This document shows positions 1,836 to 38,977 of a DNA stretch of 53,617 nucleotides, piece after piece. The position numbers and the translations under genes are program-made. Source of the stretch: Mesorhizobium sp. (lineage in GTDB: Bacteria > Pseudomonadota > Alphaproteobacteria > Rhizobiales > Rhizobiaceae); contig NZ_JAFKIC010000125.1 in assembly GCF_017306585.1 (NCBI RefSeq), positions 1-53,617 of the forward strand. Direction: 5' to 3'. Each line of letters starts with the position of its first letter. Within the stretch, counting starts at the first letter, position 1. Under the pieces are notes generated by a model. It worked only from the letters and a program-made list of their open reading frames with translations, was not told where the DNA came from and ran no database searches.

Positions 1836-2633
1836 TCATTTCTGCAGCCCCCGCGCCCGCTCGATCAGTTTTTTCATCGTCTCAAGATCGGTGGCGCCGG
1901 GAAAAATCTGATCCCCAACAATAAAACCTGGAGTTCCGGTTATTTTTAGCGCTTGGGCTAGTTCCATATTGCGGTCGATCGACGCCTGGATTTCCGGGCT
2001 CTGCATGTCGGTCTGCATGCGCGGGACATCGAGGCCTGCCTCGGCCGCGACCTTGAGCACCACCGCCTCGGTCACCCGTGTCTTGGCGCCGAACAACGCC
2101 TTGTGGAACTCCACGTACTTCCCTTGTCGGTCGGCCGCGAGTGCTGCCTTGGCCGCGAACACGGAAGCCGGCCCGAGGATGGGGAATTCCTTGTAGACGA
2201 TCTTGAGTTGCGGATCGTCGGCCACGGCTTGCGCCATGATAGGTGCTACCTGGCGGCAATAGGGACAGTTGTAGTCGAAGAATTCGACCATGGTGACGTT
2301 GCCTTCCACGTTGCCGCCAACGGGGCTTTGCTTGTCTCGAAGGATATCGTCGGCACGCGACGCAAGCGTCGCCTTTGCCTCGGCCGCATCGGCCTCGCGC
2401 TGGCGTGCCTCCAACCCTTGTATCGCCTCCATGATGACCTCGGGATGCGCGATAATGTAGTCGTGCACCCGTTGGTCGAACTGGTCCTGGGACATTTCAC
2501 CGGCCGCGATCGCCGATCGCTGTGCGCCCTGAAAGCCCGGGTTGAGCAGGAGCCATCCCGTCACTCCGGCAAGCAGAAGCGTGCGGACAAGCCAGCCCCC
2601 GTATCGATTTGCCTGTTTTAGCCTGCTGATCAT
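1836..2633 (-). CDS. DsbA-family periplasmic thiol-disulfide oxidoreductase
   Basis: The 265-residue protein has an N-terminal membrane anchor (about residues 13-32), a helical N-terminal extension (DQRVHDYIIAHPEVIMEAIQ), then a thioredoxin fold. The active site is FFDYNCPYCRQVAPIM, and the cis-proline loop is ITGTPGFIVGDQIFPGA. This is the Com1/ScsC-BdbD-like subgroup of DsbA proteins, which make or isomerise disulfides outside the cytoplasmic membrane. Its ATG overlaps the end of the SCO gene by four bases (ATGA), so translation is probably coupled; a GGAGAG site sits in the SCO tail. Placed between SCO and CcdA, it may serve copper-site maturation or metal-stress protein folding. Confidence 0.9.
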   Translation of the reverse strand: MISRLKQANRYGGWLVRTLLLAGVTGWLLLNPGFQGAQRSAIAAGEMSQDQFDQRVHDYIIAHPEVIMEAIQGLEARQREADAAEAKATLASRADDILRDKQSPVGGNVEGNVTMVEFFDYNCPYCRQVAPIMAQAVADDPQLKIVYKEFPILGPASVFAAKAALAADRQGKYVEFHKALFGAKTRVTEAVVLKVAAEAGLDVPRMQTDMQSPEIQASIDRNMELAQALKITGTPGFIVGDQIFPGATDLETMKKLIERARGLQK

Positions 2634-7931: not shown

Positions 7932-8945
7932 ATGAATTTGTTTCAGCGACTGCTCGGTTTTTTGACCCTGCCCGCCCTCGCCCTGGTTATGTCAGCTTGC
8001 GTGTCGACGGTTCTTGACGTCGACAACAAGGCAAATCAACCAATTGCGGCAAGCCTCATCAGCGATATGAGCAAGCGCAAAATGATGCCGGCCGATCCCA
8101 TTCTGATCCGCATCTTCAAGGATGAAAGCGAGCTTGAGATCTGGAAACGTGATCGCACCGGGCGTTATGCCCTGTTGAAGACCTTTCCGATGTGCCGCTG
8201 GTCCGGGAAACTCGGCCCAAAAACGAGAAATGGGGACCGGCAGGCTCCAGAAGGATTTTACAACGTATCCGCAGGCATGCTGAATCCGAACTCGCAATAT
8301 TATCTCTCTTTCAATCTGGGCTACCCGAACAAACTGGAAAGCGCCCTTGGCTATAGCGGCGAAGCCTTGATGGTTCACGGCGCCTGTTCGTCTTCAGGAT
8401 GCTTTGCGCTCACGGATGCAGGCGTCGCGGAAATCTACGCCGTTGCCCGTGAAGCCATCAGGGGCGGCCAGTCCTCCTTTCAGGTGCAGGCTTTTCCATT
8501 CCGGATGACGCCTGAAAACATGGCACGGAATCGAAATGACCCTAATTTCGATTTTTGGACAAACCTGAAACAGGGCTACGACATTTTGGAGGTCACGGGT
8601 CGTCAACCCAGGGTGACTTATTGCGGCAGACGATATGTCTTCGACGCGACCTTTGAGGGTGGCGATCCTCGCGACCCGCTGGCTTCATGTCCACCGATGC
8701 TAAATGCAGAAAACGGTGCCGTGGTCGCTCGACGCGTTTCAGATGAACGCAAGATGGAAGCGGACCTTGCCTCCGGCACAAATATATCGGCCCATGCATA
8801 TTCAGATGGCGGCATGCATCCAAGTTTTCGGAAACTGCTGAAAAGCCGGGGGCCTGCGGTGCTTGCTCAGAAAACATCATTGGATGACGTTCCGATTAGT
8901 CGACCGGATGCTGCGCTGGCGGATCCCCACGCGCCGAGCGAATGA
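7932..8945 (+). CDS. YafK-type L,D-transpeptidase lipoprotein
   Basis: The protein has 337 residues from the ATG at 7932, chosen because it begins a lipoprotein signal (LALVMSAC lipobox) and has GGGACAG upstream; the frame is open further back. The catalytic L,D-transpeptidase motif is MVHGACSSSGCFALT, with His149 and Cys157. This form, without a canonical YkuD insert, is typical of the YafK/DpaA branch. That branch can cross-link peptidoglycan or cut lipoproteins off it, so both roles are open. It is exported and membrane-anchored. The next gene on the same strand, DUF882, is also a cell-wall gene. Residues 240-337 are low in recognisable structure. Confidence 0.88.
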   Translation: MNLFQRLLGFLTLPALALVMSACVSTVLDVDNKANQPIAASLISDMSKRKMMPADPILIRIFKDESELEIWKRDRTGRYALLKTFPMCRWSGKLGPKTRNGDRQAPEGFYNVSAGMLNPNSQYYLSFNLGYPNKLESALGYSGEALMVHGACSSSGCFALTDAGVAEIYAVAREAIRGGQSSFQVQAFPFRMTPENMARNRNDPNFDFWTNLKQGYDILEVTGRQPRVTYCGRRYVFDATFEGGDPRDPLASCPPMLNAENGAVVARRVSDERKMEADLASGTNISAHAYSDGGMHPSFRKLLKSRGPAVLAQKTSLDDVPISRPDAALADPHAPSE

Positions 8946-9079: not shown

Positions 9080-9203
9080 TAGGATCGATATTCGGATGTG
9101 AAAACGACGCATCCGTTTGGGCAAATCCGGGGACAAACGGCAGCCTGCAAGGCCTTTTGATTTGAACAGCATCGAACGACACCCAGACGGTCGGCACTAT
9201 CAC

Positions 9204-11048
9204 ATGAGCGTCTGGCCGAGATGGCTGGCAGCTGTGATTGTTGCCTTTGGGGTTCTTGCCACGATGGCTGGTGGCGCAAACGCCGAAACACGTTCGCTGA
9301 AACTCTATCACCTCCATACACAAGAAAAGGCCGAGATCGTCTACAAACGCAATGGCCGCTACGATCCGGAGGGTCTGAGAAAGATCAACATCATTCTGCG
9401 CGACTGGCGTCGCAACGAGCCGACCAAGATGGATCCGCGTTTGCTGGATCTGGTCTGGGAATCGTACCGCGCCAGCGGCGCCACCGACTACATCCAGGTC
9501 GTCTGCGGCTATCGCTCGCCGGCGACGAACTCGATGCTTCGCAGCCGCAGCAGGGGTGTAGCCAAAGAAAGCCAGCACATGCTCGGCAAGGCTTTAGATT
9601 TCTACATTCCCGGCGTGCCGCTGAAGAAGCTGCGCAACATCGGCCTCAAGCTGCAGGGCGGCGGCGTCGGCTACTATCCGTCATCCGGTTCGCCCTTCGT
9701 CCACATGGATGTCGGCAACGTGCGCCACTGGCCTGGCATCAGCCGCCAGGAACTCGTCAGCCTGTTCCCCAACGGCAAGACACTGCATGTGCCGAGCGAT
9801 GGCAAGCCGCTGCCTGGCTATGAGCTTGCGCTCGCCGCCTATAAGGCACGTAAGGGCGCTGGCGCTCCGACAATCGAGATGGCCAGCGCAAGCGGCGGTT
9901 ACAAGAAATCCGGTGGTCTACTGGCTGCTTTCTTCAGCAGCGGTTCTGACGAGTCGGATGATAGCGCTGATGTCGCGACCGCCGCGCCTGCGCCCAAGCC
10001 GAGGGCCGTGAAGCCGACAGCGATCGCAAGGAGCAGCAACCTCCCGGCCATAGCCGTTGTGGCGCCGCAGGATGCGCAACGCGCCGACATTACGCAGATT
10101 GCCGATGACAACGCTGCCGATTCGCAGCCGCAGCAGGACACGCCCGAGACCATTATCGCGGCGCTGCCGGCGCGCAGCATTCCGCTGCCTGATTTCGCAC
10201 CGCGTCCGAAGGCCGATGTCGGCGCGGAGCCGCCGAGAGATGTTCCGCTCGGCATGGCGGATGCCACTGCCGCCCTCAAGCAGACGGTGGCGACGGCGCA
10301 AGCGCCGACGAGCGTTCCGTCAGGCATGACTGATCCTGCCATCGTTGCCTATCCAGCTGTGGTCGCGGTTAACAACATTCCGGTACCGGCCTGGCGTCCC
10401 GACCGATCGCTGCCGGCTGACCTCGCACCGCAAGACAAGCATGTGCTGCTGGCGCTGGCGGATACCGCCTCACATGACCAGACTGCCAGTGATGTATCTT
10501 GGGTGAAGCCAACTGCCCGGCTTGACAACGCCGAGGTCAAGGCCGTCCTCGATGAATATCAGGTCGCCTCCTTGCCGGAGCCAAGCTCGTCGTTCAGTGA
10601 TCCGGCCGGTGTGAATGTCTTGTCGCCGCGCAGCCAGATTTCTGCCCTGCCCGCCGATTCCGATCCGGCTGGAGTGATTCCCGCGTCGCCGCGTAGCGCG
10701 ATCTCTGCCCTGCCGGCCGGTTCCGATCCGGCTACAGCGATTGGCGCAGGCGTGAAGACCACGCCCAAGGAAGCCAGGGCAACCGCAGGGGACCCGAAGC
10801 ACAATCCCAAATCCGTGGTGGTCGCCGCTGCGCCGCGAGCCGCACGCTGGGCGCTGAACAGCGGAGAAAATATCGCCACAGTCTCAAGCGCAACGACAGC
10901 GCCGCGCTATGCCTACAATATCGTGCACACCCCGCCGAGCGAGGTCTATACGGCCGGTTTCCAGCCGAACAATCAAATGGCCGACGCCAACAGATTTACC
11001 GGCAACGCCATCAGGTTCATGTCGATCGCCCGCTTCCAGACCAGGTGA
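9204..11048 (+). CDS. DUF882 (M15-like) exported peptidase-type protein
   Basis: The product has 614 residues from the ATG at 9204, which opens a signal peptide (MSVWPRWLAAVIVAFGVLA..ANAE); the frame is open further back only to a TTG. Residues about 30-190 form the DUF882/YcbK-like M15 peptidase domain, with conserved VVCGYRSPATN, ESQHMLGKALDFYIP and PFVHMDVG carrying the zinc-ligand-type His and Asp residues. The remaining 400 residues are low-complexity, Ala/Pro-rich and probably disordered, with a 21-residue tandem repeat. DUF882 proteins are thought to act on peptidoglycan. A long disordered tail of this kind is common in rhizobial versions. It follows the L,D-transpeptidase gene by 258 bases. 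Confidence 0.85.
   Translation: MSVWPRWLAAVIVAFGVLATMAGGANAETRSLKLYHLHTQEKAEIVYKRNGRYDPEGLRKINIILRDWRRNEPTKMDPRLLDLVWESYRASGATDYIQVVCGYRSPATNSMLRSRSRGVAKESQHMLGKALDFYIPGVPLKKLRNIGLKLQGGGVGYYPSSGSPFVHMDVGNVRHWPGISRQELVSLFPNGKTLHVPSDGKPLPGYELALAAYKARKGAGAPTIEMASASGGYKKSGGLLAAFFSSGSDESDDSADVATAAPAPKPRAVKPTAIARSSNLPAIAVVAPQDAQRADITQIADDNAADSQPQQDTPETIIAALPARSIPLPDFAPRPKADVGAEPPRDVPLGMADATAALKQTVATAQAPTSVPSGMTDPAIVAYPAVVAVNNIPVPAWRPDRSLPADLAPQDKHVLLALADTASHDQTASDVSWVKPTARLDNAEVKAVLDEYQVASLPEPSSSFSDPAGVNVLSPRSQISALPADSDPAGVIPASPRSAISALPAGSDPATAIGAGVKTTPKEARATAGDPKHNPKSVVVAAAPRAARWALNSGENIATVSSATTAPRYAYNIVHTPPSEVYTAGFQPNNQMADANRFTGNAIRFMSIARFQTR
10599..10745 (+). repeat. 63-bp in-frame tandem repeat (2.3 copies)
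   Basis: Units begin at 10599, 10662 and 10725 with a period of 63 bases and encode a 21-residue repeat. The first two copies share DPAG at the start and ISALPA near the end (positions 14-19). The third copy is partial (DPATAIG). The repeat lies in the disordered tail of the DUF882 protein and looks like recent slippage or duplication. Confidence 0.7.
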
Positions 11049-15048: not shown

Positions 15049-17022
15049 ATGCACGATACAGCCGATGTCATCGCAGCGCTCGGCAATGAGCCGCCGCTGG
15101 TCGCGGATGGCCGCAGCCGCCCGCCTGACCGGCGCGAGATCTCGGCGCGCTGGCTGTCGGGCACCTTCCTCACCGGCGTCACCTCGAGTGTGCTGATGGG
15201 CGTGGCGCTGTTCGCCGCTGTTGACGGCCGCCAGCAATTGGCGACGCCACCCGAGATCGCCGAGTTGGCCCACGTCGAAAACGGCGGCGATTCCGGCGAA
15301 GTCTCCAAGACGACCAGGCTGGTGGCGCTACGCCAGATCGCCAAGGCCAAGGACCGCCGGCGCATGGAAGTGTCGATGGTGACGAAGGTCGGCGACCGCG
15401 ACGTCATTAACACCGTACCTTTCGTGCAGATCAAGATGGCGCTTGCCGCCGGGCACACGACCAGCCGTCCCTACCCGCCTTTCGACCCCATGCAGGTGTT
15501 TGCCGACGACGGTGCCGAGCAATCGGCGCCAAGTGACACTGGCGTCAGTCAGATCTATGGCGCCAAGGTCGAAAGCGAGATGAGCCTGAAGACCGTCGAT
15601 TTCCCGATCGAGACAGCTTCATTCGACGAAAAGAGCGATCTCTCCGCCGAGGAGGTGGAAAAGGTTGTGCGCGGCGCCGGCACGGGACTGAGCGATGGCG
15701 CGGTGCAGGTGGCGTCGCTGCACTATGTGGACCCTCAGCGCTTTGGAGACCAACTGACGCAGAGCATGGCCGGCTCTTATGATGTCAAGGTCGTGCCAGA
15801 AAACGTCTCGGTGTCGCCGCGTGCCATCGCCGACGACAAAGCGCCTGCCTTCGCCGAAGAAATCATTCCCTTCACCAAGGACCTCGACGTCACTGAGGCT
15901 TTTGCTGGTTCCGGCTACACAGGTGAAGACGCTACCGGCATGGCCGAAGCGATCGCCAAGCTGTTGAACGCGACTGCGCTCAAGGCAGGAACCGTTCTGC
16001 GCGTGGGGCTGGAGGTTCGCGGCGAGCAGGCAAAGGTTGTCCGCACCAGCGTTTATGACAAAACCCAGCACATCGTGACCATTGCGCTCGACGATCACGG
16101 CCAGTATGTGCCGGCGCAGGAGCCTGAACCCAATCCCGAATTGCTGACCGCGTTCGACGATTCGCCGCCGGTGACGGTGCGCGGCAATTTGCCGAACATC
16201 TATGACGGGATCTACCGCGCCGCTTATTCCTACGGCATGTCGAAGAAGATGACCCAGCAACTGGTCAAGCTTTTGGCATCCGGCGTCGACTTCCAGTCCC
16301 GGCTCAACCCGTCGGACCGCATGGATGTTCTGTTCTCGCAGCCGGACGGCGACGACCAACCTTCCGACAAGTCCGAACTGCTTTATGTCTCATCGACCTT
16401 TGGCGGCACCGTGCACAATTTCTACCGCTTCCACATGCAGGATGGAAGCACCGACTATTTCGACGAGAAGGGCAGCAGCGCCGAGCAGTTCCTGCTACGC
16501 AATCCGGTTCCCAATGGCAGGTTTACCTCTGGTTTTGGACTTCGGCGCCACCCGATCCTGGGTTACGTCAAAATGCATACCGGAACAGATTGGGCAGCCC
16601 CGATCGGAACGCCAATCATTGCGGCCGGAAACGGCATCGTCGAGAAAGCCGGATGGGCCAGCGGCTATGGCAAACAGACAATACTACGTCACGCCAACGG
16701 CTATGAGACCTCCTACAACCACCAGAACGGCTTCGCCAAGGGCATCGTGCCGGGGGCTCAAGTGAGGCAAGGACAGGTCATTGGCTATCTTGGCTCGACC
16801 GGTCTTTCCACCGGTCCCCATCTCCACTACGAGTTGATCGTCAACGGCACCAAGGTCGACGCGATGCGCGTTCGCCTTCCGGTCGGCAAGGTGCTGAAGG
16901 GCGATGACCTTGTAGCCTTTAAGCGCGAGCGCCAGCGCATTGACGACCTGCTCAAACAGGAAGACAGCGATCACTTGAGGGTAGCAAGCGTCAAGGGCGA
17001 CGACTGTGCAACAATTTGCTAA
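15049..17022 (+). CDS. M23-family metallopeptidase, membrane-anchored
   Basis: The product has 657 residues with one membrane segment (about 35-57, LSGTFLTGVTSSVLMGVAL). A long middle region of unknown fold follows, then a C-terminal LytM/M23 endopeptidase domain. Its zinc motifs are visible: HPILGYVKMHTGTDWAAP and GPHLHYELIVNG. M23 enzymes cut peptide cross-links in peptidoglycan or activate amidases. The frame stays open upstream to about 14982 with sensible codons (FRLGEEAPFW) but no ATG, so the N-terminus may be slightly longer or the promoter-proximal part altered. It is followed by the DUF1007 remnant. Confidence 0.9.
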   Translation: MHDTADVIAALGNEPPLVADGRSRPPDRREISARWLSGTFLTGVTSSVLMGVALFAAVDGRQQLATPPEIAELAHVENGGDSGEVSKTTRLVALRQIAKAKDRRRMEVSMVTKVGDRDVINTVPFVQIKMALAAGHTTSRPYPPFDPMQVFADDGAEQSAPSDTGVSQIYGAKVESEMSLKTVDFPIETASFDEKSDLSAEEVEKVVRGAGTGLSDGAVQVASLHYVDPQRFGDQLTQSMAGSYDVKVVPENVSVSPRAIADDKAPAFAEEIIPFTKDLDVTEAFAGSGYTGEDATGMAEAIAKLLNATALKAGTVLRVGLEVRGEQAKVVRTSVYDKTQHIVTIALDDHGQYVPAQEPEPNPELLTAFDDSPPVTVRGNLPNIYDGIYRAAYSYGMSKKMTQQLVKLLASGVDFQSRLNPSDRMDVLFSQPDGDDQPSDKSELLYVSSTFGGTVHNFYRFHMQDGSTDYFDEKGSSAEQFLLRNPVPNGRFTSGFGLRRHPILGYVKMHTGTDWAAPIGTPIIAAGNGIVEKAGWASGYGKQTILRHANGYETSYNHQNGFAKGIVPGAQVRQGQVIGYLGSTGLSTGPHLHYELIVNGTKVDAMRVRLPVGKVLKGDDLVAFKRERQRIDDLLKQEDSDHLRVASVKGDDCATIC

Positions 17023-18057: not shown

Positions 18058-18666
18058 ATGAAGACGGCAAGGGGCAGGCTGTTGCTTTTGACAATGGCGA
18101 TCCAGCTATCCGGCTGGGGAACGGCAAACGCGGCAGGACCAGCCTTCATGAGCACAGGCGGCCGTACCACGCAGCCGGTTGGCCACTACGAATTCTGCCT
18201 GCGACGACCTGGCGAGTGTCGTCAGATGACGCCGAAAGGTCCGCCTGTTGTACTCTCCCGCAAGCTTTGGGCCGAAATCGTCGAGATCAACAACAGCATC
18301 AATACGAGGATCAAACCGAAGACCGACCTGGAAAACAATGGGGTCGAGGACTATTGGACTGTCGTCGACAATGGGTTCGGCGACTGCGAGGATTACGCTC
18401 TGGAAAAGCGCCGCGAACTGATGAGTGAGGGTGTTCCAGCTGGCGACTTGTTGATGACAGTGGTGCGTCTGCCGAGCGGCGACGGGCACGCCGTGTTGAC
18501 CGTCCGCACCAGCCTCGGCGAGTTCATCCTCGACAATCTGGACTCGAGGGTGCTGTCCTTCGCGGACACCGACTACACCTACCTGAAGCGCCAGTCGACT
18601 GAGAATTCAGGCGTTTGGGTGACGATCAATGAGGGCAGCGCCGACGTGGTCGGCAGCGTTCGCTAG
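18058..18666 (+). CDS. Bacterial transglutaminase-like cysteine peptidase (DUF920), copy 2
   Basis: The 202-residue product has a signal peptide ending near NAAG. The triad is Cys110 in GFGDCEDYALEKRREL, His144 in GDGHAVLTVRT and Asp159 in FILDNLD. It is clearly paralogous to the copy at 11419-12042, sharing TTQPVGHYEFC and YLKRQ near the end. The 200 bases before it are strikingly AT-rich (17930-18000), which probably marks its promoter. It is a periplasmic peptidase; the target is unknown. The two copies may be differently regulated, since this one lacks the CtrA-type box. Confidence 0.9.
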   Translation: MKTARGRLLLLTMAIQLSGWGTANAAGPAFMSTGGRTTQPVGHYEFCLRRPGECRQMTPKGPPVVLSRKLWAEIVEINNSINTRIKPKTDLENNGVEDYWTVVDNGFGDCEDYALEKRRELMSEGVPAGDLLMTVVRLPSGDGHAVLTVRTSLGEFILDNLDSRVLSFADTDYTYLKRQSTENSGVWVTINEGSADVVGSVR

Positions 18667-20586: not shown

Positions 20587-20967
20587 GTGACCGATCGGCG
20601 GCCAAACCTCCTCATCCTAATCGCGGTCTGCATCGCGGGACCAGGGACGTTTGCGGTCGCTATGGCGGTGCATGCCGCCTATTCGCAACCGTTTGAGTAT
20701 CGGATTTTGGTAGAAGACGGTGCGATATCTGGACCAAGCGGATCCCCTGATTGCGATAAAGTCGGCAATAATGGCAATTGCTGTGTGGCTTTCCATTGCG
20801 TGGTCGGCATTGCCACGGGGTCCGCGACCATTGGATTTCGTCTGTTGAGTTCAAGGGCTGTTGCAGAGGCGCAGGAGTCATTTCCGTCTCGATCAACAGG
20901 TCGGTTGGAGCGACCGCCCAAGCGGTCCTTTTCGGTCCCATTCCCTAATCGGACAGCCGCAGCGTAG
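20587..20967 (+). CDS. Possible small membrane/secreted protein
   Basis: A 126-residue frame from the GTG at 20587 (the frame is open further back to 20431) encodes a hydrophobic N-terminus (RPNLLILIAVCIAGPGTFAV), a polar part with NGNCCVAFHCVVG and a basic, proline-containing tail (ERPPKRSFSVPF). The layout resembles the small Cys/His-rich exported proteins seen near copper genes. There is no clear ribosome site or family match, and the codon bias is weaker than in its neighbours. If it is not a gene, 20340-21007 is non-coding apart from the promoter of the DUF305 gene. Confidence 0.35.
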   Translation: MTDRRPNLLILIAVCIAGPGTFAVAMAVHAAYSQPFEYRILVEDGAISGPSGSPDCDKVGNNGNCCVAFHCVVGIATGSATIGFRLLSSRAVAEAQESFPSRSTGRLERPPKRSFSVPFPNRTAAA

Positions 20968-21007
20968 CTGCGTACCCCTCGAAGTCAGACAAAACAGGAG
21001 AAAGACC

Positions 21008-21424
21008 ATGCGTAACGTCATCGCCACCCTTGCGGTCGCTACTTTACTCGCTGGGGCTAGTTCAGCCGCCTTCAGCCAAGAGAACCCCCTCCCACAGCAA
21101 TGCCGTCAAACCGGCACCGAACAAATGGCTGGCATGGATACGCCAAAGATGGACGCATCCGGCATGGACGAGGCCCACCAAGCATACATGGCGTCAATGG
21201 AGAAAATGGAACCAGCCATGATGGAGGGGATCATAGCCAAGGATGCAGACGTGGCCTTCATCTGCGGAATGATCGCCCATCACCAGGGCGCGATCGATAT
21301 GGCGGAGGTCGAGCTCAAATACGGCGACAACGCCGACGCTAAGAAAAAGGCGCAGATGGTCATTGATGCTCAAAAGAAGGAGATCAAGGATTACACGAAG
21401 TGGCTCAAGACCAATGCGAAATAG
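21008..21424 (+). CDS. DUF305 family Met/His-rich secreted protein
   Basis: The 138-residue product has a signal peptide (MRNVIATLAVATLLAGASSAAF) and a good GGAGAAAG ribosome site. A Met-rich segment (MAGMDTPKMDASGMDEAH, then MASMEKMEPAMMEG) leads into the DUF305 core CGMIAHHQGAIDMAEVEL, a helical ferritin-like fold. DUF305 proteins are often found in copper-resistance loci and may bind metal. The Csp-type copper protein gene follows after 45 bases on the same strand, so the two form an operon. Confidence 0.9.
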   Translation: MRNVIATLAVATLLAGASSAAFSQENPLPQQCRQTGTEQMAGMDTPKMDASGMDEAHQAYMASMEKMEPAMMEGIIAKDADVAFICGMIAHHQGAIDMAEVELKYGDNADAKKKAQMVIDAQKKEIKDYTKWLKTNAK

Positions 21425-21469: not shown

Positions 21470-21802
21470 ATGCACCAACTGAACCCGAAAATGAGGGCCT
21501 GCATCGAGGAATGCTTACGCTGCTATTCAACGTGTCTTTCGACCGCGATGGGCCATTGTCTGGAGATGGGTGGAAAGCACACCGAGAGGAAGCATTTCAC
21601 CTTGATGATGGCCTGCGCCGAAATCTGTCGAACATCGGCGCATTTCATGTTGCTCGGCTCCGAGCATCACAAGCACGTCTGCCGTGAATGCGCCGAGATC
21701 TGCGGCCAGTGCGCGAATGACTGCGAACGCCTCGGCGATATGGAAGAATGCGTGGACGCCTGCCGCCAATGTGCCGAAAGCTGCAACATGATGGCCGCAT
21801 AG
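21470..21802 (+). CDS. Four-helix-bundle copper storage protein (Csp-type, DUF326)
   Basis: The 110-residue protein has 16 cysteines, mostly in CxxxC and CxxC spacing along helices (11, 15, 18, 22, 30, 49, 53, 71, 74, 78, 81, 85, 94, 98, 101, 105). This is the pattern of Csp copper-storage proteins, whose four-helix bundle is lined with Cys and binds many Cu(I) ions. There is no signal peptide, so it is the cytosolic Csp3-like form. It probably buffers copper inside the cell. It follows the DUF305 gene and is terminated by a strong hairpin at 21817. Confidence 0.9.
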   Translation: MHQLNPKMRACIEECLRCYSTCLSTAMGHCLEMGGKHTERKHFTLMMACAEICRTSAHFMLLGSEHHKHVCRECAEICGQCANDCERLGDMEECVDACRQCAESCNMMAA

Positions 21803-21870: not shown

Positions 21871-22356
21871 CTAGACGGTGGCGGGAGGCTGGTCGCGAAA
21901 GGAAGGCGTAGGCAGAGGCGAAACGAGCCGAAAGTTGCGCCACCGGACGTAAACAGCGACCATCGTCACGAGCGCCCCGCCCGCCGCCAGATAAATCCGG
22001 ACGGGCTCCAGATAAGTCAACAGCGCGCTGGCGCCGAACAGGAAGAGCAGAAGCTTGTTGCAGATTGGGCAAGCGATGCCGATGTAGTTGGCGATGCCGC
22101 CAAGGCTGGCGAGTTTCAGAGCACATGCCGGAACCGGAATCGTGACATAGATCCCGAGCAAAAGCGCCTGCAACGCAAGCAGCCCCACTTCGAAGCCGCT
22201 TGTCGGCGTCATGCGTATGAAGAAGGGGTTTGCCCACAACGCCGCAACGGTTCCGAGCATGGCGAAAGAACCAATCGCAACCAACGCGCCCTTGATGTAT
22301 GAGGTGAATGCCACTTTCGCCTCCGTGTTTCTTCCAATTCGAATGGTTTCTTCCAT
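21871..22356 (-). CDS. Four-TM membrane protein with CPIC motif
   Basis: The product is 161 residues from the ATG at 22356, which has GGAG eight bases upstream; a GTG at 22365 would add three residues. Four hydrophobic segments are visible (about 20-40, 55-77, 87-118, 125-142). The third contains NYIGIACPICNKLLLFLFG, a CxxC placed within or at the edge of the membrane, and another Cys lies in PVPACALKLA. The arrangement recalls VKOR-like quinone-linked thiol oxidases, but I cannot confirm that. It starts 13 bases after the penicillin-binding protein stop and is the last gene of that four-gene operon. Confidence 0.7.
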   Translation of the reverse strand: MEETIRIGRNTEAKVAFTSYIKGALVAIGSFAMLGTVAALWANPFFIRMTPTSGFEVGLLALQALLLGIYVTIPVPACALKLASLGGIANYIGIACPICNKLLLFLFGASALLTYLEPVRIYLAAGGALVTMVAVYVRWRNFRLVSPLPTPSFRDQPPATV

Positions 22357-22369
22357 CTTTTTCACTCCG

Positions 22370-24124
22370 TTACGGTTTTACTGGGGCAGCCACAGCTTCT
22401 ACGGTGGGTTGGTTGGCGACTGGGAGAACCGGTCGAAAGCGTTCGGAACCCCACGCTGCGATCCGCACCATGGTTGGAAACGGATCGGTTGGCCGTTCCC
22501 CGTAAGGTGCGATCGGGAGAAGCGGCAAAACCCGCTTCATGATGTCCCCTGTCACCGGAACCGCGTTCCAGCCCGACGTTTTGAATCCGCTGGTTTCCGG
22601 CAGTGCCTGGGGCTCATCGAGAATTGTCAGGAATAGATAGCGGGGTTGGTCCGCAGGAACTATGCCCATAAAGGCCGTCAGCACCCGGTCTCCAGAATAG
22701 CGCCCGTTGACCACCTTGTTAGAAGTGCCCGTCTTGCCTCCAATGAAATACTCCGGAAAGTCGGCTTTTTTTGCCGAACCGACTTCGGCGTTCAGCCGCA
22801 TGAGGAACCGCAGCGCCTGCCCTGTTTCTGATGTCACCACGTCCGTGGCTAAAATTCGCGACTCCAAGGGGGTTCCCTTGATGAAAGTTGGCCGGATAAG
22901 GCTCCCGCCGTTAACAAGCGACGCGACCGCCATCGTCGCTTGTAGCGGTGTCACAGCCATACCGTGGCCAAAAGCGATCGTGGCGGTGCTCAGTTCGCTC
23001 CAGTTCGGAGGAATAAGCGGCTCTGCATTCTCGGGCAGTTCGGTGGTTAGGCGATCGAACTGACCCAGCCTTTTTAGGAAGGTTTTGTGGTTTTCGACGC
23101 CTACACCCATGGCCATCCGGGCCATCGCAATGTTCGATGAATAGATGAATGCCTCGGGAACAGTCAGCGGCCTTCCCTGGCCGCGGTAGTCGTTGATCGT
23201 AAACCGGCCAAATCGCAAAGGTCGACTGGCGTCAAGGACGGAATGGATGTTGAACACGCCCGAATCCAGCGCCATAGCGGTGGTCATCGCTTTAAAGGTA
23301 GACCCCATTTCGTATGTACCGACACTGATGCGATTGATGCGGTCTGGTTTGAGTGCATCAGCGGGAATGTTGGGGTCAAAATCGGGAAGCGACACGAGCG
23401 CAATCACTTCCCCATTGGTGACATCCAATACCAGCCCTGCCCCAGCGATGGCGCTGAAGCGGGCGACAGCTTTCCTCAACTCGTCGCTCAACGCATATTG
23501 GACCCTCAAATCCAGGCTGAGAACAACCGGCTCGAGATCCCGTCGATTGAAATTCAAGCCGGCCAATCTGAGATCCTGCAATCCTTGTTCGTCGATCCAG
23601 CGTTCGATGCCAGCAATCCCGGCATTGTCTATGTTGACTGATCCCAAAACATGCGCAGCGGCAGGCCCATTGGGATAAAGGCGACGCGTTTCATCCCGAA
23701 CTCCAACCCCTGGAATCCCTAGGCCCCAGAGCCGGTCCTTTTCAGCGAGCGTTACGCTTCGTTTGATCCAGGTGAAGCCACTGTCGCTGCCTAGGCGTTT
23801 GTGAAGGTCCATCATATCGAGGTCCGGAAAAACGCTCATCAGGCCCTCAGCCGCCTCGTCGACATCGATAATTCGGCGCGGCTCGGCGTAGACCGAAAAA
23901 CTCGCGGTATCCATCGCGAGGATCACGTTGTTCCGATCGACTATGTCCGGCCGTGCAACAGACGGCGGTACGGCCGCGTAGGCTCGATCGGGCCGATCCA
24001 TGTTTCCAAACATTACCAGGCGCACGCCTATCGCAGCGAAGAAGAAGGCAAACATCGCCATTACGGCATAGATTCGAGCCCTGTATTTGGCAGGCCGATG
24101 GCGAGCGTCCGATGCATTTTTCAT
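22370..24124 (-). CDS. Class B penicillin-binding protein (FtsI/PBP2-like transpeptidase)
   Basis: The product is 584 residues from the ATG at 24124; the frame is open upstream inside the transglutaminase gene but without sensible sequence. A short cytoplasmic tail and one membrane segment (about 17-38) precede the PBP dimerisation region and a transpeptidase domain. The active-site motifs are all present: Ser275-x-x-Lys278 (EMGSTFKAM), SSN at 329-331 and KTGT at 464-467. It should cross-link peptidoglycan in the periplasm. Since no division cluster surrounds it, it is probably an accessory copy. It starts 4 bases after the transglutaminase stop. Confidence 0.93.
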   Translation of the reverse strand: MKNASDARHRPAKYRARIYAVMAMFAFFFAAIGVRLVMFGNMDRPDRAYAAVPPSVARPDIVDRNNVILAMDTASFSVYAEPRRIIDVDEAAEGLMSVFPDLDMMDLHKRLGSDSGFTWIKRSVTLAEKDRLWGLGIPGVGVRDETRRLYPNGPAAAHVLGSVNIDNAGIAGIERWIDEQGLQDLRLAGLNFNRRDLEPVVLSLDLRVQYALSDELRKAVARFSAIAGAGLVLDVTNGEVIALVSLPDFDPNIPADALKPDRINRISVGTYEMGSTFKAMTTAMALDSGVFNIHSVLDASRPLRFGRFTINDYRGQGRPLTVPEAFIYSSNIAMARMAMGVGVENHKTFLKRLGQFDRLTTELPENAEPLIPPNWSELSTATIAFGHGMAVTPLQATMAVASLVNGGSLIRPTFIKGTPLESRILATDVVTSETGQALRFLMRLNAEVGSAKKADFPEYFIGGKTGTSNKVVNGRYSGDRVLTAFMGIVPADQPRYLFLTILDEPQALPETSGFKTSGWNAVPVTGDIMKRVLPLLPIAPYGERPTDPFPTMVRIAAWGSERFRPVLPVANQPTVEAVAAPVKP

Positions 24125-24128
24125 GAAA

Positions 24129-24866
24129 CTAGCCTTTGACCGGATTTTCACGCGCACGCAGTTCATCGGTCCAGGCGTTGAAGGCGCGGTTGAAGGCCAA
24201 TGTCCGTTTGCGTTCGGGCCATTTGAACCCGAAATAGGCGTAGAGATCGGTCCCTGCCTTGATATCTCCTTGGCGAACAACGACCTTTGCACGCGGGGTA
24301 ATGGCCGGTGTCGGTTCAACGCCGTTCCAGTTTGCAAGAACCGGAAAGCCCGCTTTTCCCAGGGCCAGATCCCAAGTCGCATCGACCAGGATCCATTTCC
24401 CGTCGACATTGACCTCCACGGTATCGTGGAAGCCGCGTGTTTCGGCCAGGGGTTGCAGCACCGATTGCGGTATTGGCAAGTCGGCCCAGTCAAAGGGAAC
24501 CCGGATCGGCCGAGCGTCGACCTTCCACGATCGGATTAGCTGAAGCAAGGCTGCCGATTTGTGGCGGCAATCCCCGCGATCGATCGCGAACAGACTGTCC
24601 GGATTGCCGGTCCACGCGGTCAGCTTGTACGGGACCTCTTGCACTATTTTGAATGCGGCGATCCGCCGATCTCGGGCGGTCAGGCCGACCTGCAGCTGTT
24701 CGGCAATCCACTTGCAAGAGGGCGTTTCGCCGTTGGCGCGCTGCGCTTGCAACTCGCGTTGAATGTCCGCGATGCGAGCGTCGAGTGCTTGAGATGTCTG
24801 CGCCACTGCGCGGCCTGGCGCGAGAGTCGTTGCGCCAGCGCCGATCAAAAACATGCGTCGGTTCAT
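24129..24866 (-). CDS. Exported transglutaminase-like protein
   Basis: The 245-residue product has a short signal (MNRRMFLIGAGATTL, a near-Tat RR start). Its transglutaminase core has the triad Cys100 (DRGDCRHKSAALLQL), His147 (RGFHDTVEVNV) and Asp162 (WILVDATWD). This is the classical transglutaminase-core family rather than DUF920. Members act as cysteine proteases, amidases or cross-linkers. It overlaps the upstream methyltransferase-like gene by four bases (ATGA) and ends 4 bases before the PBP start, so the three are translationally linked. A role in wall or lipid-carrier peptide processing is inferred from that coupling. Confidence 0.85.
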   Translation of the reverse strand: MNRRMFLIGAGATTLAPGRAVAQTSQALDARIADIQRELQAQRANGETPSCKWIAEQLQVGLTARDRRIAAFKIVQEVPYKLTAWTGNPDSLFAIDRGDCRHKSAALLQLIRSWKVDARPIRVPFDWADLPIPQSVLQPLAETRGFHDTVEVNVDGKWILVDATWDLALGKAGFPVLANWNGVEPTPAITPRAKVVVRQGDIKAGTDLYAYFGFKWPERKRTLAFNRAFNAWTDELRARENPVKG

Positions 24867-25843
24867 CGAAAAACCTCCAGCATTTGCGGAAAGCCCAATT
24901 CTCCTGCGTCCCGCTGATTTGCAGGATGAGGATCCAGTTCAGCAAGCATGGCAGAGCTTTCCCCAGGCCGTAGCAATTCCGCACGGGGCAAGTGTATTTT
25001 GACGTTGCCAGTTGGCGGTTTTGTCCTCCATGCAATCGGCTGCTTTTCGAATGCGACAATGATGCCGTTCATGCCACCGGCGTTGCACCATTTGCGCATT
25101 GCCAGCCCGTTGGCGCGCGCGCACTCCGAAACCAATCCCGCAAATTCCGGTCGAAGGTTGAATACGAGCAGCCCGCCATTTCGCAGCAGGGCCGAAGCTG
25201 CCACGAGGAACGATTTTACGTCTGTTTCGAAATAGGCTGCTGCTTGTGAGTAAAGAATGTCGACCGTCCCGGCCTGAAGGCCGTGGGTGTCCAGAATGGA
25301 AAGGCCGGCAGCTGTGACATAGGGATGCTCGACGATGCCCGCGGGCAGCTCGGCATGCCACTGCGTCAAGTTGGTGAAGTGGAAAAATACGTTTTGACCG
25401 AGACCATTTTCAAAATGTCTGGCGAGGCTCGCGATGTCGCGAGGCTTTGACGGTGGAGGGCTTCTCAATCCCGCCCAGCCGCCGCCAACTTCCAGATATT
25501 GCAAGGCTCCGTCTGTCCGCAGTCGGCGATCCGCTTCGTGGAGAAGGTCGACGCCGACCTCCTCGGCAAGCCGGAAGGACCCGCCGCTGGACGTCCACGC
25601 TCCGTCATGGAGAAATGAAACAAAGGTCTCGCGGATCGACCCCGTCTCTCGATATACGGCGTCGAGATATTTAATCGGATTTCGCCGTGAGGGAATCGGC
25701 ACGTTGGGACGCAGGCGGCGGGCCTGAAGATCCCGTTTTACGCCCATCCTTATCGACCGCCATGCGGCCTCGTCCGGCTCGTATCCGATAGTTTGAAAGT
25801 TGCCTAGAATAGATTTGCGCGCGCGCGCAGCTGCGATAAACAT
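24863..25843 (-). CDS. SAM-dependent methyltransferase-like protein
   Basis: The product has 326 residues and no signal peptide. A glycine-rich motif I (LQYLEVGGGWAGL), the downstream DILYSQAAAYFETDVKSFL and ALLRNGGLLVFNLRP suggest a Rossmann-fold methyltransferase of the putative sugar O-methyltransferase type. The substrate is unknown, and the N-terminal 100 residues (SRRNPIKYLDAVYRE) are shared with that group in my recollection. It is the first gene of the operon leading into transglutaminase, PBP and the CPIC membrane protein. A perfect inverted repeat lies 27 bases upstream. It could modify a wall or surface precursor. Confidence 0.65.
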   Translation of the reverse strand: MFIAAARARKSILGNFQTIGYEPDEAAWRSIRMGVKRDLQARRLRPNVPIPSRRNPIKYLDAVYRETGSIRETFVSFLHDGAWTSSGGSFRLAEEVGVDLLHEADRRLRTDGALQYLEVGGGWAGLRSPPPSKPRDIASLARHFENGLGQNVFFHFTNLTQWHAELPAGIVEHPYVTAAGLSILDTHGLQAGTVDILYSQAAAYFETDVKSFLVAASALLRNGGLLVFNLRPEFAGLVSECARANGLAMRKWCNAGGMNGIIVAFEKQPIAWRTKPPTGNVKIHLPRAELLRPGESSAMLAELDPHPANQRDAGELGFPQMLEVFR

Positions 25844-25954: not shown

Positions 25955-26290
25955 TCAGCACGAAGCGACTCTTGGAGGGCGATCTAGGGATATCTGGACA
26001 GCGCGAGCGCCGTCCTGACTGGGGGAAAAGGCCGGACGACTGATGGTTCCGACAAAGTTAACAGCAAACTGATGGATCATTTCGGCATGATGATCGTGAT
26101 GCAGAGCGCTGTGCGACACGGTCCCGACGTCTTTGGAGCCTTGGTCGTGAACATGAGTGATCGCTGCAACGAGAATGTCGGCGGACTCAGCCCTTGGCGG
26201 ATGCGCGGCAAACGCCGACAGCAGCATCGCGAACGCGATGGCTATCGAAATGAGGCGACGAGCCTGCCATCTTGAACCGGTGGTCCACAT
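25955..26290 (-). CDS. Small secreted His-containing protein
   Basis: The product is 111 residues from the ATG at 26290, preceded by GGA; an ATG at 26305 and a GTG at 26308 are alternatives. A signal peptide (RLISIAIAFAMLLSAFAAHPP) is followed by a His-rich part (ITHVHDQGSKD, then HSALHHDHHAEMIHQ) and a short tail. It resembles the exported His/Met-rich small proteins of metal loci but belongs to no family I can name. It is transcribed in the same direction as lgt upstream, 33 bases after its stop. Periplasmic metal binding is inferred. Confidence 0.55.
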   Translation of the reverse strand: MWTTGSRWQARRLISIAIAFAMLLSAFAAHPPRAESADILVAAITHVHDQGSKDVGTVSHSALHHDHHAEMIHQFAVNFVGTISRPAFSPSQDGARAVQISLDRPPRVASC

Positions 26291-26323
26291 AATTCCAGTT
26301 CGCATCACAGCGTTGATTTTTGG

Positions 26324-27301
26324 TTAAAGGCGGGGAGCGTCTGTCGAATCACAGACGCTTGCAAGCGGGAGATTAGTCCTAGGGCGGGCAAAGTGTCCAT
26401 ACGATGTCCGTTTGGGCGGCGAAGGGAGATGCGGGTCTTCAGCCGTGTCATGCCGGCTGCGGCTGCGGCACGGCTTGGCGATCGCCATCGCCCAGATGCC
26501 GGCCAGCACCATCGGCGACGACAGGATCATGCCCATGGTCAGCCAGTTGGTGCCGAGGAGGTAGCCGAGCTGCTGGTCGGGCTCGCGGAAGATCTCGACG
26601 AAGATGCGCGACAGGCCATAGCCGCAGATGAAGGCGCCGCCGACGAAGCGCGGCGTCTTCAGCTTGAGGCGCGAATGGGTGAGGATGCGCAGCACGACAA
26701 ACAGCACCAAGCCTTCGAGCAGCGCCTCGTAGAGCTGGCTCGGATGACGGGCAAACGGCCCGCCATTCGGGAATTCGAATGCCCACGGCACGTCGGTCGG
26801 CCGGCCCCAGAGCTCGGAGTTGATGAAGTTGGCGACGCGCACCAGGCCAAGGCCGACCGGCACCCCGGCCGCCACGACATCGAACAGCGACCAGGTGCGG
26901 ATGCCGCGCTTGATGGAAAACAGCGTCATGGCGAGGATGACGCCAAGCAGGCCGCCATGGAACGACATGCCGCCTTGCCAGACCGCGAAAATGTCGAGCG
27001 GGTGGGCGATGTAGCGCGGCAGTTCGTAGAACAAGACGTAGCCGGTGCGGCCGCCGAGCACGAAGCCGATGGCCGCCCAGACGATGAAATCGTCGAGGTC
27101 CTCCGGCTTCATCGGCAGGATGCCGTCGGGCCACAGTTTCGGGTTGGCGGCGAGCCGCTTGGCGTACCACCAGGCAAACAGGATGCCGACGATATAGCCG
27201 ACGCCGTACCAGTGCACCGCCAGCGGCCCGATCTGGATGAGGATCGGGTTGATGTTGGGAAACGGCAGGGAGGCCAGCGGCAGCAGGAAATAGTCGTTCA
27301 T
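26324..27301 (-). CDS. lgt: Prolipoprotein diacylglyceryl transferase, altered C-terminus
   Basis: The first 276 or so residues are a normal Lgt: [41 protein letters not shown], the signature [15 protein letters not shown] and [12 protein letters not shown]. Lgt attaches diacylglycerol to lipoprotein cysteines in the inner membrane. The last 48 residues (after AMAIAKP) are unlike any Lgt tail I know. In another frame the sequence reads VPQPQPA and stops at 26448, overlapping an ATGA. One missing base near 26475 would explain this. It lies away from its usual chromosomal neighbours, so it may be a second copy. Confidence 0.85.
26428..26451 (-). pseudogene. First codons of the usual lgt downstream gene
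   Basis: Directly at the expected lgt end an ATG (26451) opens MTRLKTRI. That is how the class I SAM methyltransferase (NDUFAF7-like) gene that normally follows lgt in rhizobia begins, as far as I recall. After eight codons the resemblance stops (SLRRPNGHR). This suggests the lgt segment was copied here with the tip of its neighbour. The evidence is short. Confidence 0.35.
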
Positions 27302-27431: not shown

Positions 27432-28312
27432 TCATTGAGAGGTCTCTGACCTCAAGAACGGCACGATCGCTTGTTCGACGGCCTCGGGGAACTCTTCATG
27501 GATCGACAGCTTGCCACGCGGAAGCCGCGCGACCTGTACGTTCGGCAACTCCGCCAGCGCTTCCATTTCAGCGCGCGACTTCGGCGGCGTCTTATCCCCG
27601 TCGACCATGAGGATCGGAACCTTCGTTTGCCGGGCGAGGTCAGGAAATTCCGTGTGGCTGGTCACGCGGTCGAGGCCGCCAGTGACGAAGCGGACGGATG
27701 CGTGACTTGCTCCGGCAACTCGCGCGATGGCGAGTTTCGCGCGCAGGCGATCGCCGGATAGCCAGAGAGGATTGTCGTAGACGTGCTCACGCGCCATCTT
27801 GGAACGACGAAGCGGCTGACATTGAGCCTATACAGGAGCGAGCCGATCCCTTCATAGTCAAGGACGTCACGGACACGGGCAAACCAGGGACGATATCCGC
27901 GCATCATCGTCGGGAATGGCCCTCGCCATGTCGGCGCGATCAGCACGAGGCGATCGATGGCGTTTGGTCGATATGCCGCGTGAAAGAGGGCATAAGTTGC
28001 GGCATGGCCTGCGGCGACGACCGCGTGCGGCGGGGGCACTATCTCGCTCAGGAACCAGTTCAGGAAAGCTGAGAGGATTTCCGGTGTCCAATCGGCTCTC
28101 GGGCGCGGCAGGACGCCGAATCCTGGCCAGTCGACCGTGACGACGCGGAAGCCCGGCGCAAGCCTGTCGAAAAGGGGGCGAATTTCCGCGCGCGTCGAGA
28201 TCGAGCTCAGCGCGGGCAAGAGTACAACGGTTGATCCGCGGCCGGCCTCGTCCATGCCGAGCGCGACCTCCAGTTCTTCACACTTGCACCGTATTGTCCG
28301 CAACATCGCCAT
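27432..28312 (-). pseudogene. Alpha/beta hydrolase gene with frameshift
   Basis: The first part (ATG at 28312, GGAGTGAC upstream) encodes an alpha/beta hydrolase: STVVLLPALSSISTR, VVTVDWPGFGVLP, AAGHAATYALFHAAY and RLVLIAPTWRGPFP. After SRFVV the frame goes wrong, and the rest (MAREHVYDNPLWL through VPILMVDGDKTPP to LSIHEEFPEAVEQ) continues in another frame to 27432. One base missing near 27799-27804 would account for it. The nucleophile elbow reads AAGHAA (His in place of the usual Ser), so it may be a non-catalytic relative. It lies one base after DUF1289, in the P1B-ATPase operon. Confidence 0.75.
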
Positions 28313-28313
28313 G

Positions 28314-28511
28314 TCACTCCTTGTCGCGATTGCCCCGACGAGCCCAAAGCTTGGCCTCGCGTCGAGTTTGTTCGGCCAGAATCTGATGCCGCTTGTGGTC
28401 GGTGAACTTCCGCCATTGGCGGATTTCAGCCGTGGTGCGGAAGCAACCGACACAGAGGTCAGCCTTGCGGTCGAACTTGCAGATATCGAGACATGGTGAT
28501 GCCAGGGACAC
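28314..28511 (-). CDS. DUF1289 small Cys-rich protein
   Basis: The 65-residue product starts at a GTG (28511), two bases after the stop of the P1B ATPase. The DUF1289 motif SPCLDICKFDRKADLCVGC continues with FRTTAEIRQWRKFTD. The four cysteines probably bind a metal or form a small knuckle. The function of DUF1289 is unknown. The stop lies one base before the hydrolase ATG, so ATPase, DUF1289 and hydrolase form one unit. Confidence 0.85.
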   Translation of the reverse strand: MSLASPCLDICKFDRKADLCVGCFRTTAEIRQWRKFTDHKRHQILAEQTRREAKLWARRGNRDKE

Positions 28512-30543: not shown

Positions 30544-30819
30544 TTACTTGAGGTAGGCGCGCACGACGTCGATGAGTTCTGCGGCGCCTTCGTTGCGTTC
30601 TTCCTGGGCCAGGTCGCCGTCGGCGACGTGCAGCAGGATGTGATCCTCGACCACTTCCGCCATCAGGCCGTTGATGGCGCCGCGAACGCCGGCGATCAGT
30701 TGGAGAACGTCGGCGCAGCCCTTTTCGTCCTGGAGCGCCCGCTCGACGGCATCCATCTGGCCGCGGATGCGGCGCACGCGGTTGATGAGCTTCGTTTTCT
30801 CGCGGGTCGTATGCGACAT
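30544..30819 (-). CDS. rcnR: RcnR-type nickel/cobalt-responsive repressor
   Basis: The product is 91 residues from the ATG at 30819, with AAGGAG upstream. It is a CsoR/RcnR/FrmR all-helical repressor. The metal ligands line up with E. coli RcnR at the same numbers: His3 (MSHTTREK), Cys35 (KGCADVLQ), His60 and His64 (EDHILLHVADG). RcnR releases DNA when it binds Ni(II) or Co(II), turning on the exporter. A G-tract operator lies 22 bases upstream, between this gene and the divergent NicO gene. The P1B ATPase starts 17 bases downstream, so the repressor likely controls both sides. Confidence 0.9.
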   Translation of the reverse strand: MSHTTREKTKLINRVRRIRGQMDAVERALQDEKGCADVLQLIAGVRGAINGLMAEVVEDHILLHVADGDLAQEERNEGAAELIDVVRAYLK

Positions 30820-30840
30820 GCAGCGCTCCTTTTCCCACAA

Positions 30841-38864: not shown

Positions 38865-38977
38865 AGATACACGCGCGGTCGGCGCGGATAATAAACGCGC
38901 CGGCCACGTTCATTGTACCAAGGCTTGGTACGTTGGGCCGTCTGATAGAATGCGCGAGAAACCAAGGGCGGATCCTC

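Follow-up and report, generated by a model that had tools for sequence, protein, structure and literature searches.

A five-gene operon of histidine-rich, methyltransferase-like, transglutaminase-like, penicillin-binding and MerT-related proteins in metal-resistance islands of Mesorhizobium and relatives

Why should genes for a methyltransferase-like protein (MTase), a transglutaminase-like protein (TGase), a penicillin-binding protein (PBP) and a membrane protein (here called CPIC) lie tightly packed on one strand? The question is raised by a stretch of Mesorhizobium sp. DNA of 53,617 nucleotides (contig NZ_JAFKIC010000125.1, positions 1 to 53,617; hereafter the window). An earlier interpretation, made from the letters alone (the sequence-only reading), had taken the packing as a sign of one process, for example an alternative cross-linking of peptidoglycan or of a surface polymer. 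We show here that the operon has a conserved gene content and order, that its genes evolve under purifying selection and that it lies in metal-resistance islands. We tentatively interpret it as a cell-envelope maintenance unit of such islands: the association is observed, the mechanism is our own proposal, and we think the proposal slightly more apt to fail than to hold.

The open reading frames (ORFs) of the window include five consecutive minus-strand genes, encoding a histidine-rich (His-rich) protein, MTase, TGase, PBP and CPIC, and a terminator-like hairpin comes after the last of them (table 1). The coordinates of the last four genes, with a 4-base overlap (24863-24866) and gaps of 4 and 13 bases, were confirmed as the sequence-only reading had them, and so were the intact motifs of TGase (Cys100/His147/Asp162) and PBP (STFK/SSN/KTGT), which are conserved in homologs as well. 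The four genes are real, but the unit begins one gene earlier, with the His-rich gene, located 111 bp upstream of MTase in the window and 110-111 bp in five of the loci described below (L011-L015). The earlier description had passed over this gene, the Lgt gene 15 bp upstream of it, the hairpin, the surrounding copper island and the metal-resistance context. Terminator-like sites of the hairpin type numbered 20 in 10.5 kb against 10.4 expected, and the promoter scan was uninformative, with 3 sites against 2.7 expected and hence no excess. Searches with Rfam (gathering threshold) and for tRNAs gave no match in the window, and PHROGs gave none for four proteins.

An alignment of four MTase sequences, run against a collection of 84,980 species with a single genome per species, gave 12 loci. 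A TGase match lies downstream of MTase in 11 of them, within 162 bp where measured and at 1.24 kb in L016; a nearly full-length PBP is also present in six (L011-L016) and CPIC in five (L011-L015). The order is His-rich/MTase/TGase/PBP/CPIC in L011-L015 and His-rich/MTase/TGase/PBP in L016, which gave no CPIC match. Conserved adjacency in other genomes was the test that the sequence-only reading had set itself, and the gene order does recur in five other Hyphomicrobiales loci. MTase of the window is 54-70% identical to that of L012-L016, with a synonymous divergence (dS) of 0.95-2.6, and the shared order is therefore old in these loci. The genes of the operon are under purifying selection: comparisons of MTase, TGase, PBP and CPIC between the window and six loci (five for CPIC) gave ratios of nonsynonymous to synonymous divergence (dN/dS) of 0.075-0.231, with dS of 0.95-2.6 for all loci except the nearest, L011. 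For L012-L015, the values for the four genes were 0.95-2.5 (dS) and 0.075-0.216 (dN/dS). The His-rich gene, over all its pairs with the window, gave dN/dS of 0.17-0.61. Several of the gene starts used for dS and for the gaps given next were set mechanically or taken from tblastn ends.

The tight packing stressed earlier holds for the window and is common only to M. norvegicum (L011), with wider gaps elsewhere. Between MTase and TGase, these are 114-129 bp in L012-L015, 162 bp in L017 and 1241 bp in L016 (8 bp in the two gammaproteobacterial loci measured), and between PBP and CPIC 142-181 bp in L012 and L013 (7-14 bp in L014 and L015). The dS between window and L011 differs from gene to gene, being 0.11-0.15 for His-rich, PBP and CPIC, 0.27 for TGase and 0.47 for MTase, and from these differences the block may be a mosaic. 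The pairs formed by window and L011 and by L014 and L015 were recovered in the PBP, MTase and TGase trees (support for the first pair in the TGase tree 91/98, not starred), while L012 and L013 paired in the PBP and MTase trees and were unresolved in the TGase tree. Among near kin the operon is rare: TGase occurs in 3 of 101 genomes. In wider sets, the MTase profile matched 4 of 397 genomes of the order (two weakly and partially), CPIC was found in 3 of 385 genomes of the class and the TGase profile in 5 of 385, four of them remote; the TGase and CPIC counts include the window's own genome. In two Alphaproteobacteria with a remote relative of TGase, MTase gave no match in the vicinity. Two genomes of the near-kin set (G056 and G007) are apparently those of L011 and L015 and were not counted again, although a direct substring comparison, which took no account of strand, was negative, and a third (G911) is apparently the Bosea genome of L019, having the same ORFs. 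L017 and L006 belong to one species, and the gammaproteobacterial loci are close kin, mostly on plasmids.

What do the surroundings have in common? By its predicted gene content the window is a copper island, with three multicopper oxidases and a P-type ATPase with an HMA domain (CopA-type by inspection). Copper genes are shared by L012, L014 and L015, namely multicopper oxidases, partly with a MerR/CueR-like regulator and a CopA-type ATPase (both named by inspection). Nickel or cobalt genes were found by tblastn in the flanks of seven of the 12 loci (L011, L016, L017, L018, L020, L021 and L022). In M. norvegicum, a pair resembling the cobalt/nickel efflux genes dmeRF (PMC6044271, known to us in part) lies between a P-type ATPase and Lgt, the names being given by sequence inspection; the closest DmeF homolog (86%) in the genome to which the window belongs lies on a different contig, C40. 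In L016, MTase, TGase and PBP are followed by opposite-strand genes for a major facilitator superfamily (MFS) protein and an NcrB-like protein, and by HupE. The MTase-TGase pair of Rhizobium daejeonense and Shinella is flanked on one side by genes for HupE, a metal-sensing repressor, nickel/cobalt efflux and an MFS protein, and on the other by an ATP-binding cassette (ABC) transporter with an SBP_bac_5 protein (NikA-like by inspection), a transporter that is found upstream in L016.

The His-rich/MTase/TGase trio reaches further. On three enterobacterial plasmids read, it directly precedes ncrA, ncrB and an ncrC/rcnA-type gene, with MFS and nickel efflux genes downstream. A related known system is that of the ncrABC(Y)/nir nickel-resistance genes of enterobacteria and Leptospirillum (PMC8545094, PMC3046157, both in excerpt). 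The window differs from that system in that NcrA-, NcrB- and NcrC-type proteins have no match there at E 1e-5, and its operon adds PBP and CPIC. In the main text of PMC8545094, the words transglutaminase and methyltransferase are absent. A tblastn search of 72,556 plasmid records gave TGase in 267 and MTase in 266, mostly from Klebsiella and Enterobacter; with both genes on more than 250 plasmids, their function reaches beyond rhizobia.

The His-rich gene stands directly before MTase in every aligned locus (window, L011, L012, L014, L016, L006, L018, L019 and L020). Its protein is probably exported, and H54, H71, H73 and R110-P111-P112 are invariant in 10 aligned sequences (nine before MTase and one beside HupE), the homologs being 18-96% identical to the window protein. 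Concerning MTase, Pfam Methyltransf_11 matches weakly (0.022 for the window protein, 8e-5 at best among 12 homologs), and its C-terminal tail is longer than that of all other aligned homologs except M. norvegicum. The AlphaFold2 model (predicted local distance difference test, pLDDT, 73.4) has S-adenosylmethionine (SAM)-dependent methyltransferases as top Foldseek matches in the PDB (best E 8e-7). The 50 matches listed include C- and N-methyltransferases, nocardicin aminocarboxypropyl transferase and spermidine synthase, and their query-normalised TM-scores are low (0.26-0.39); therefore only a fold class is claimed, the predicted Rossmann-type class I methyltransferase fold.

TGase scored 24.0 bits against the Transglut_core (PF01841) cut-off of 23.0, and the domain together with the Cys-His-Asp triad marks it as a member of the transglutaminase-like superfamily. 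The triad is invariant in an alignment of four sequences, which includes two enterobacterial homologs and one from Rhizobium. Among ten sequences, the window's included, [RF]GDCRHK and D[AP]TWD occur in all and FHDT in nine, the tenth (L016) having IHDS in its place with the His kept. All ten N-termini show an RR leader on inspection, as expected of a Tat substrate, and in enterobacteria some of the homologs carry the annotation 'Tat pathway signal sequence'. No convincing sequence relatives of TGase or MTase were found in the PDB. We also considered a metallophore pathway, with a SAM enzyme, the SBP_bac_5 ABC transporter and the MFS protein as its parts, and rejected it: the loci read contained no recognisable opine dehydrogenase, and Pfam and NCBIfam gave no match to histidine-methyltransferase or metallophore families.

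PBP can be assigned to class B by its PBP_dimer and Transpeptidase domains and by the SxxK/SxN/KTG motifs, which read STFK, SSN and KTGT in all seven operon PBPs, the window's among them. These are features of FtsI/PBP3 and PenA, from which the operon PBP differs as an accessory copy in metal islands that reaches the cut-off of none of the 23 NCBIfam models listed; the best matches were to PenA-type PBP2, SpoVD and FtsI models (165-225 bits), with MecA-type models below 30. The closest other copy in the genome (contig C266) is 48% identical. The PBPs of Shinella and R. daejeonense, which are not adjacent to the pair, cluster with that of L016 (support 89/91, node not starred). Beside the Shinella PBP, a gene annotated 'SAM-dependent methyltransferase', with a counterpart in R. 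daejeonense, was examined as a possible MTase and discarded as a different protein, PmtA-like by inspection; the window MTase has no match there. In Bosea (L019), two overlapping partial PBP matches at 7807-8288 lie upstream of MTase and are perhaps remnants of a once linked PBP.

What kind of protein is CPIC? The residues C96/P97/C99/N100 (C-P-x-C-N) are invariant in 11 sequences of the family, one further Cys being conserved in the bacterial sequences only. CPIC had no Pfam match above cut-off, and MerT was not among the nine families listed for eight members scanned. A profile comparison with four MerT proteins (PF02411) by hhalign gave a probability of 90.2% (pairwise E 1.5e-6, over 60 columns), with the CPIC motif falling on the ACC motif of MerT; the MerT set had been found with the CPIC profile, and the comparison is thus not independent of that search. 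In the controls, DsbB reached 1.8% (four-sequence profile) and VKOR 0.3% (two-sequence profile), on which both identities were rejected, the second being the one that the sequence-only reading had proposed to look for. The vicinal Cys pair in the first membrane helix of MerT is absent from CPIC, which has Cys96/Cys99 as CPxCN instead, and no mer genes were recognised in the operon. By profile, then, CPIC appears to be distantly related to MerT, with CPxC where MerT has CC; its AlphaFold model (mean pLDDT 49.5) is of low confidence and too poor to be used for the fold. Among 398 genomes of the phylum, the CPIC profile found the window's own gene and, weakly, 14 other genomes (E 7e-7 to 6.5e-4 per genome). 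Seven of these weak loci were inspected: a MerT-like match lies beside MerR-, MerP- or MerF-like genes in L043, L045, L052 and L056 (the L056 protein scoring 52.2 bits against the Pfam MerT cut-off of 32.9), the L044 match is flanked by MerR- and MerF-like genes (names by inspection), and those of L042 and L047 were not assignable from the ORF list.

On plasmids, 14 records carry a CPIC homolog, and one without annotation (L086) was dropped. DsbA, DsbD, thioredoxin or CcdA is encoded within 5 kb of the homolog in nine of the remaining 13, including two strains of one species (L089 and L093) and three related Rhodobacterales (L037, L038 and L087); L036, L090, L091 and L092 have no such gene. 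A heavy-metal ATPase is near in three of the 13, and a PBP also in three. As a control, though not a formal null, 150 kb from three of the same plasmids held 133 annotated features and no thiol-redox gene by product name. Neither MTase nor TGase accompanies CPIC in the annotated plasmid stretches examined. The earlier guess that CPIC acts on thiols or quinones thus survives in its thiol part, which the neighbouring genes fit, by way of a family other than VKOR. The plasmids of the three Rhodobacterales carry two L,D-transpeptidases, cytochromes c, the CPIC homolog, a ferric-reductase-like protein, PBP2 and DsbA proteins, with the L,D-transpeptidases and PBP2 within 5 kb of the homolog. To judge by its genes the cluster looks like a redox/cell-wall unit, which to our knowledge has not been described.

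How might these proteins act together? We suggest that the His-rich protein would bind metal outside the cytoplasm. It would form a core with a SAM-dependent methyltransferase acting in the cytoplasm and a transglutaminase-like Cys enzyme exported by the twin-arginine route, and several lineages have this core alongside genes for nickel and cobalt efflux. The Mesorhizobium line would have added PBP and CPIC to this trio, PBP supplying serine-based D,D-crosslinking and CPIC, as a MerT-like CPxC membrane protein, acting on metal or electrons at thiol groups. With the Lgt, ScsC/DsbD and M23/M15 peptidases encoded in the same island, these proteins would allow peptidoglycan to be crosslinked, lipoproteins to mature and disulfides to be maintained when copper or nickel blocks Cys-dependent steps. 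We infer in this scheme the export of the proteins, their enzyme activities and substrates, the order of assembly and the joint action.

The envelope theme, already part of the sequence-only reading, is strengthened by the wider window, in which PBP is accompanied by Lgt and by M23 and M15_2 peptidases (table 1). Homologs of the M23 peptidase, 79-98% identical, lie near the operon in L011, L013, L014 and L015, and BTLCP, a second transglutaminase-like protein, does so in L011-L014 (84, 34, 34 and 43% identity). The genome has in total six M23 and seven transpeptidase domains in 7.09 Mb, one of each within these 53.6 kb, so that two were seen against 0.10 expected, a post hoc comparison. Lgt adjoins the operon here and in M. 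norvegicum. Since Lgt is essential in Gram-negatives, we assume a second, housekeeping lgt elsewhere in the genome. The thiol-redox genes at the left end of the window recall the Scs system (suppressor of copper sensitivity); a distance of 19 kb, which includes plus-strand genes, separates them from the operon. In L012 (13386-14336) and L013, BTLCP follows CPIC on the same strand.

Table 1. Features of the operon and envelope-related genes of the window
Feature	Position	Strand	Basis or remark
DsbD_TM protein	1089-1823		DsbD_TM 2.3e-16; thiol-redox unit with ScsC-like DsbA
ScsC-like DsbA	1836..2633	-	DSBA 1.8e-29, ScsC_N 5.1e-12
M15_2 (DUF882) peptidase	9117..11048	+	PF05951 6.6e-72
M23 peptidase (peptidoglycan endopeptidase type)	15049..17022	+	PF01551 1.9e-29
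BTLCP, second transglutaminase-like protein, Peptidase_C93	18058..18666	+	PF06035 5.3e-60
Terminator-like hairpin, just 3' of CPIC	21841-21817	-	9 pairs, all G-C, then ATTTGGTTTT; consensus match only
CPIC membrane protein, putative distant MerT relative with CPxCN	21871..22356	-	hhalign to MerT
Class B PBP, FtsI/PenA-like	22370..24124	-	Transpeptidase 2e-48, PBP_dimer 2.7e-10 (Pfam)
TGase, twin-arginine-type leader, Cys100/His147/Asp162	24129..24866	-	Pfam Transglut_core 4.9e-5
MTase, class I SAM-dependent methyltransferase-like, 326 aa	24863..25843	-	Weak Pfam Methyltransf_11 and Foldseek
His-rich protein, small (117 aa), HxH motif and RPP tail	25955..26308	-	First gene of conserved unit; no Pfam family above cut-off
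Lgt (prolipoprotein diacylglyceryl transferase)	26324..27301	-	TIGR00544 236.9 bits, cut-off 118.9

A more specific idea, which we find attractive but doubtful, is that a metal-resistance island supplies spare versions of the very envelope components that its metal attacks, in which case resistance would come from backing up the targets and not from efflux. In this copper island, the additional PBP and the Lgt, ScsC/DsbD and M23/M15 proteins would then bypass copper-blocked L,D-crosslinking, the Lgt reaction and disulfide formation. According to the portions of the papers available to us, copper inhibits L,D-crosslinking in several species (PMC11390936), mimics the loss of Lgt (PMC6538781) and disturbs disulfides (PMC6593411, a commentary), and set against these published targets the island would encode enzymes at or around each. 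Back-up would be most useful in Hyphomicrobiales because of their strong reliance on L,D-transpeptidases, in which they are rich (PMC12729407, in part). This match between island and copper targets was not met in our searches of the open-licence PMC literature, none of which was aimed at it directly.

Several observations weigh against the envelope interpretation. The parts of the unit occur separately in other genomes: the three enterobacterial plasmids carry the trio without PBP and CPIC, in Shinella and R. daejeonense some 15 kb of the same plasmid separate PBP from the MTase-TGase pair, and Bosea L019 has MTase with no TGase match and only partial PBP matches. PBP relatives of Sinorhizobium meliloti pSymA and Microvirga adjoin PBP1A, and the stretches read around them have no annotated metal-resistance gene, which makes it less likely that the PBP family is tied strictly to metals. 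That all four genes serve one process, as first supposed, is not supported: the pair occurs without PBP and CPIC, and PBP and CPIC occur apart from the pair. The companion genes are not constant either, M15_2 having one match near the operon elsewhere (L014, C-terminal half only, residues 323-643, at the locus end), a DsbA-like protein (28.7% to the ScsC-like one) occurring near it only in L014 and L015, and Lgt giving a tblastn match in L011 only and none in the 9-kb flanks of L012-L016. Nickel/cobalt genes were not found by tblastn in L012-L015, L019 or the window. As far as the text of PMC11390936 available to us goes, no other metal salt tested inhibited L,D-transpeptidase activity, and the copper argument therefore does not explain the nickel loci. 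Finally, in the available part of PMC8545094, deletion of ncrABC in Enterobacter had the same effect as losing an entire amplified region of 9 kb, and E. coli K-12 became nickel-resistant with ncrABC alone; the trio, if it lies inside that region, was therefore not needed in that assay.

The main rival is a stepwise capture of genes that are separately useful under metal stress and share an island, perhaps a promoter, and no process. We regard it as rather improbable, though it draws on the same scattering of modules among genomes, on the 114-181 bp gaps in several loci, on L016 with its PBP and no CPIC match, and on the possible mosaic of window and L011; what speaks against it is an order conserved in five loci, of which four have a dS of about 1 or more, and the locus pairs that recur in the PBP, MTase and TGase trees, the less well supported TGase pair included. 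Next comes a metal-ligand system, in which MTase and TGase would act on the His-rich protein, or on a small metal ligand, modifying or processing it for the buffering of nickel, cobalt or copper in the periplasm, with PBP and CPIC as passengers. The constant place of the His-rich gene, its invariant HxH, the SBP_bac_5 transporters near the pair and the MFS and nickel efflux genes of the enterobacterial plasmids speak for it, but a similar His-rich gene stands before HupE with no adjoining MTase (L006, 14049-14441), the family searches noted above found no relevant match, and the leaders seem by inspection to differ, the His-rich one having a Sec-type look against the RR of TGase. We therefore hold this system unlikely.

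A metal-independent crosslinking of peptidoglycan or the surface, the idea of the sequence-only reading, would have TGase forming amide crosslinks with PBP as partner and MTase modifying a precursor; the PBP domains and motifs and the Rhodobacterales plasmids with L,D-transpeptidases and PBP2 near CPIC speak for it, yet the neighbourhoods are metal islands and the annotations of the three enterobacterial stretches read show no peptidoglycan gene next to the pair, which makes it very improbable. Lower still we place beta-lactam tolerance by target replacement, suggested by an accessory FtsI-like copy 48% identical to the nearest other one: the motifs are canonical, the NCBIfam scores point to PenA-type PBP2, SpoVD and FtsI and away from MecA, and metal genes lie all around.

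Accessory genes of metal-resistance islands are known as such, and what is new here is this gene set and the idea of envelope-target back-up. In the open-licence PMC literature, we found no paper on nickel ncrA with a transglutaminase, none on nickel resistance and a penicillin-binding protein in Mesorhizobium, and none on an operon combining transglutaminase, methyltransferase, penicillin-binding protein and metal resistance (three-gene matches being judged by title). Efflux, oxidation and sequestration are the usual terms in which metal resistance of bacteria is described. If the operon protects the cell wall, back-up of envelope targets would join these modes and provide a testable link between the poisoning of L,D-transpeptidases by copper and resistance genetics. 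The CPIC family, for its part, offers a testable candidate MerT relative associated with DsbA-type genes.

Some further features of the island deserve mention. A heavy-metal P-type ATPase at 28514-30469 has, on inspection of the translation, GACG in place of the usual CPC of the CPx motif, and before it lies an FrmR/RcnR-like repressor (30544-30840) that scores below both NCBIfam cut-offs. An alpha/beta-hydrolase at 27432-28453 is seemingly split over two overlapping frames and possibly broken (second half by inspection), and its place is taken by the DmeR/DmeF-like pair in M. norvegicum. One ORF (38933-41032) combines DUF4396 and multicopper oxidase domains. Directly downstream of the operon and convergent with it are genes for a Cys-rich DUF326 protein (21470-21802) and a DUF305 protein (20939-21424), which recur in L011, L013 and L015.

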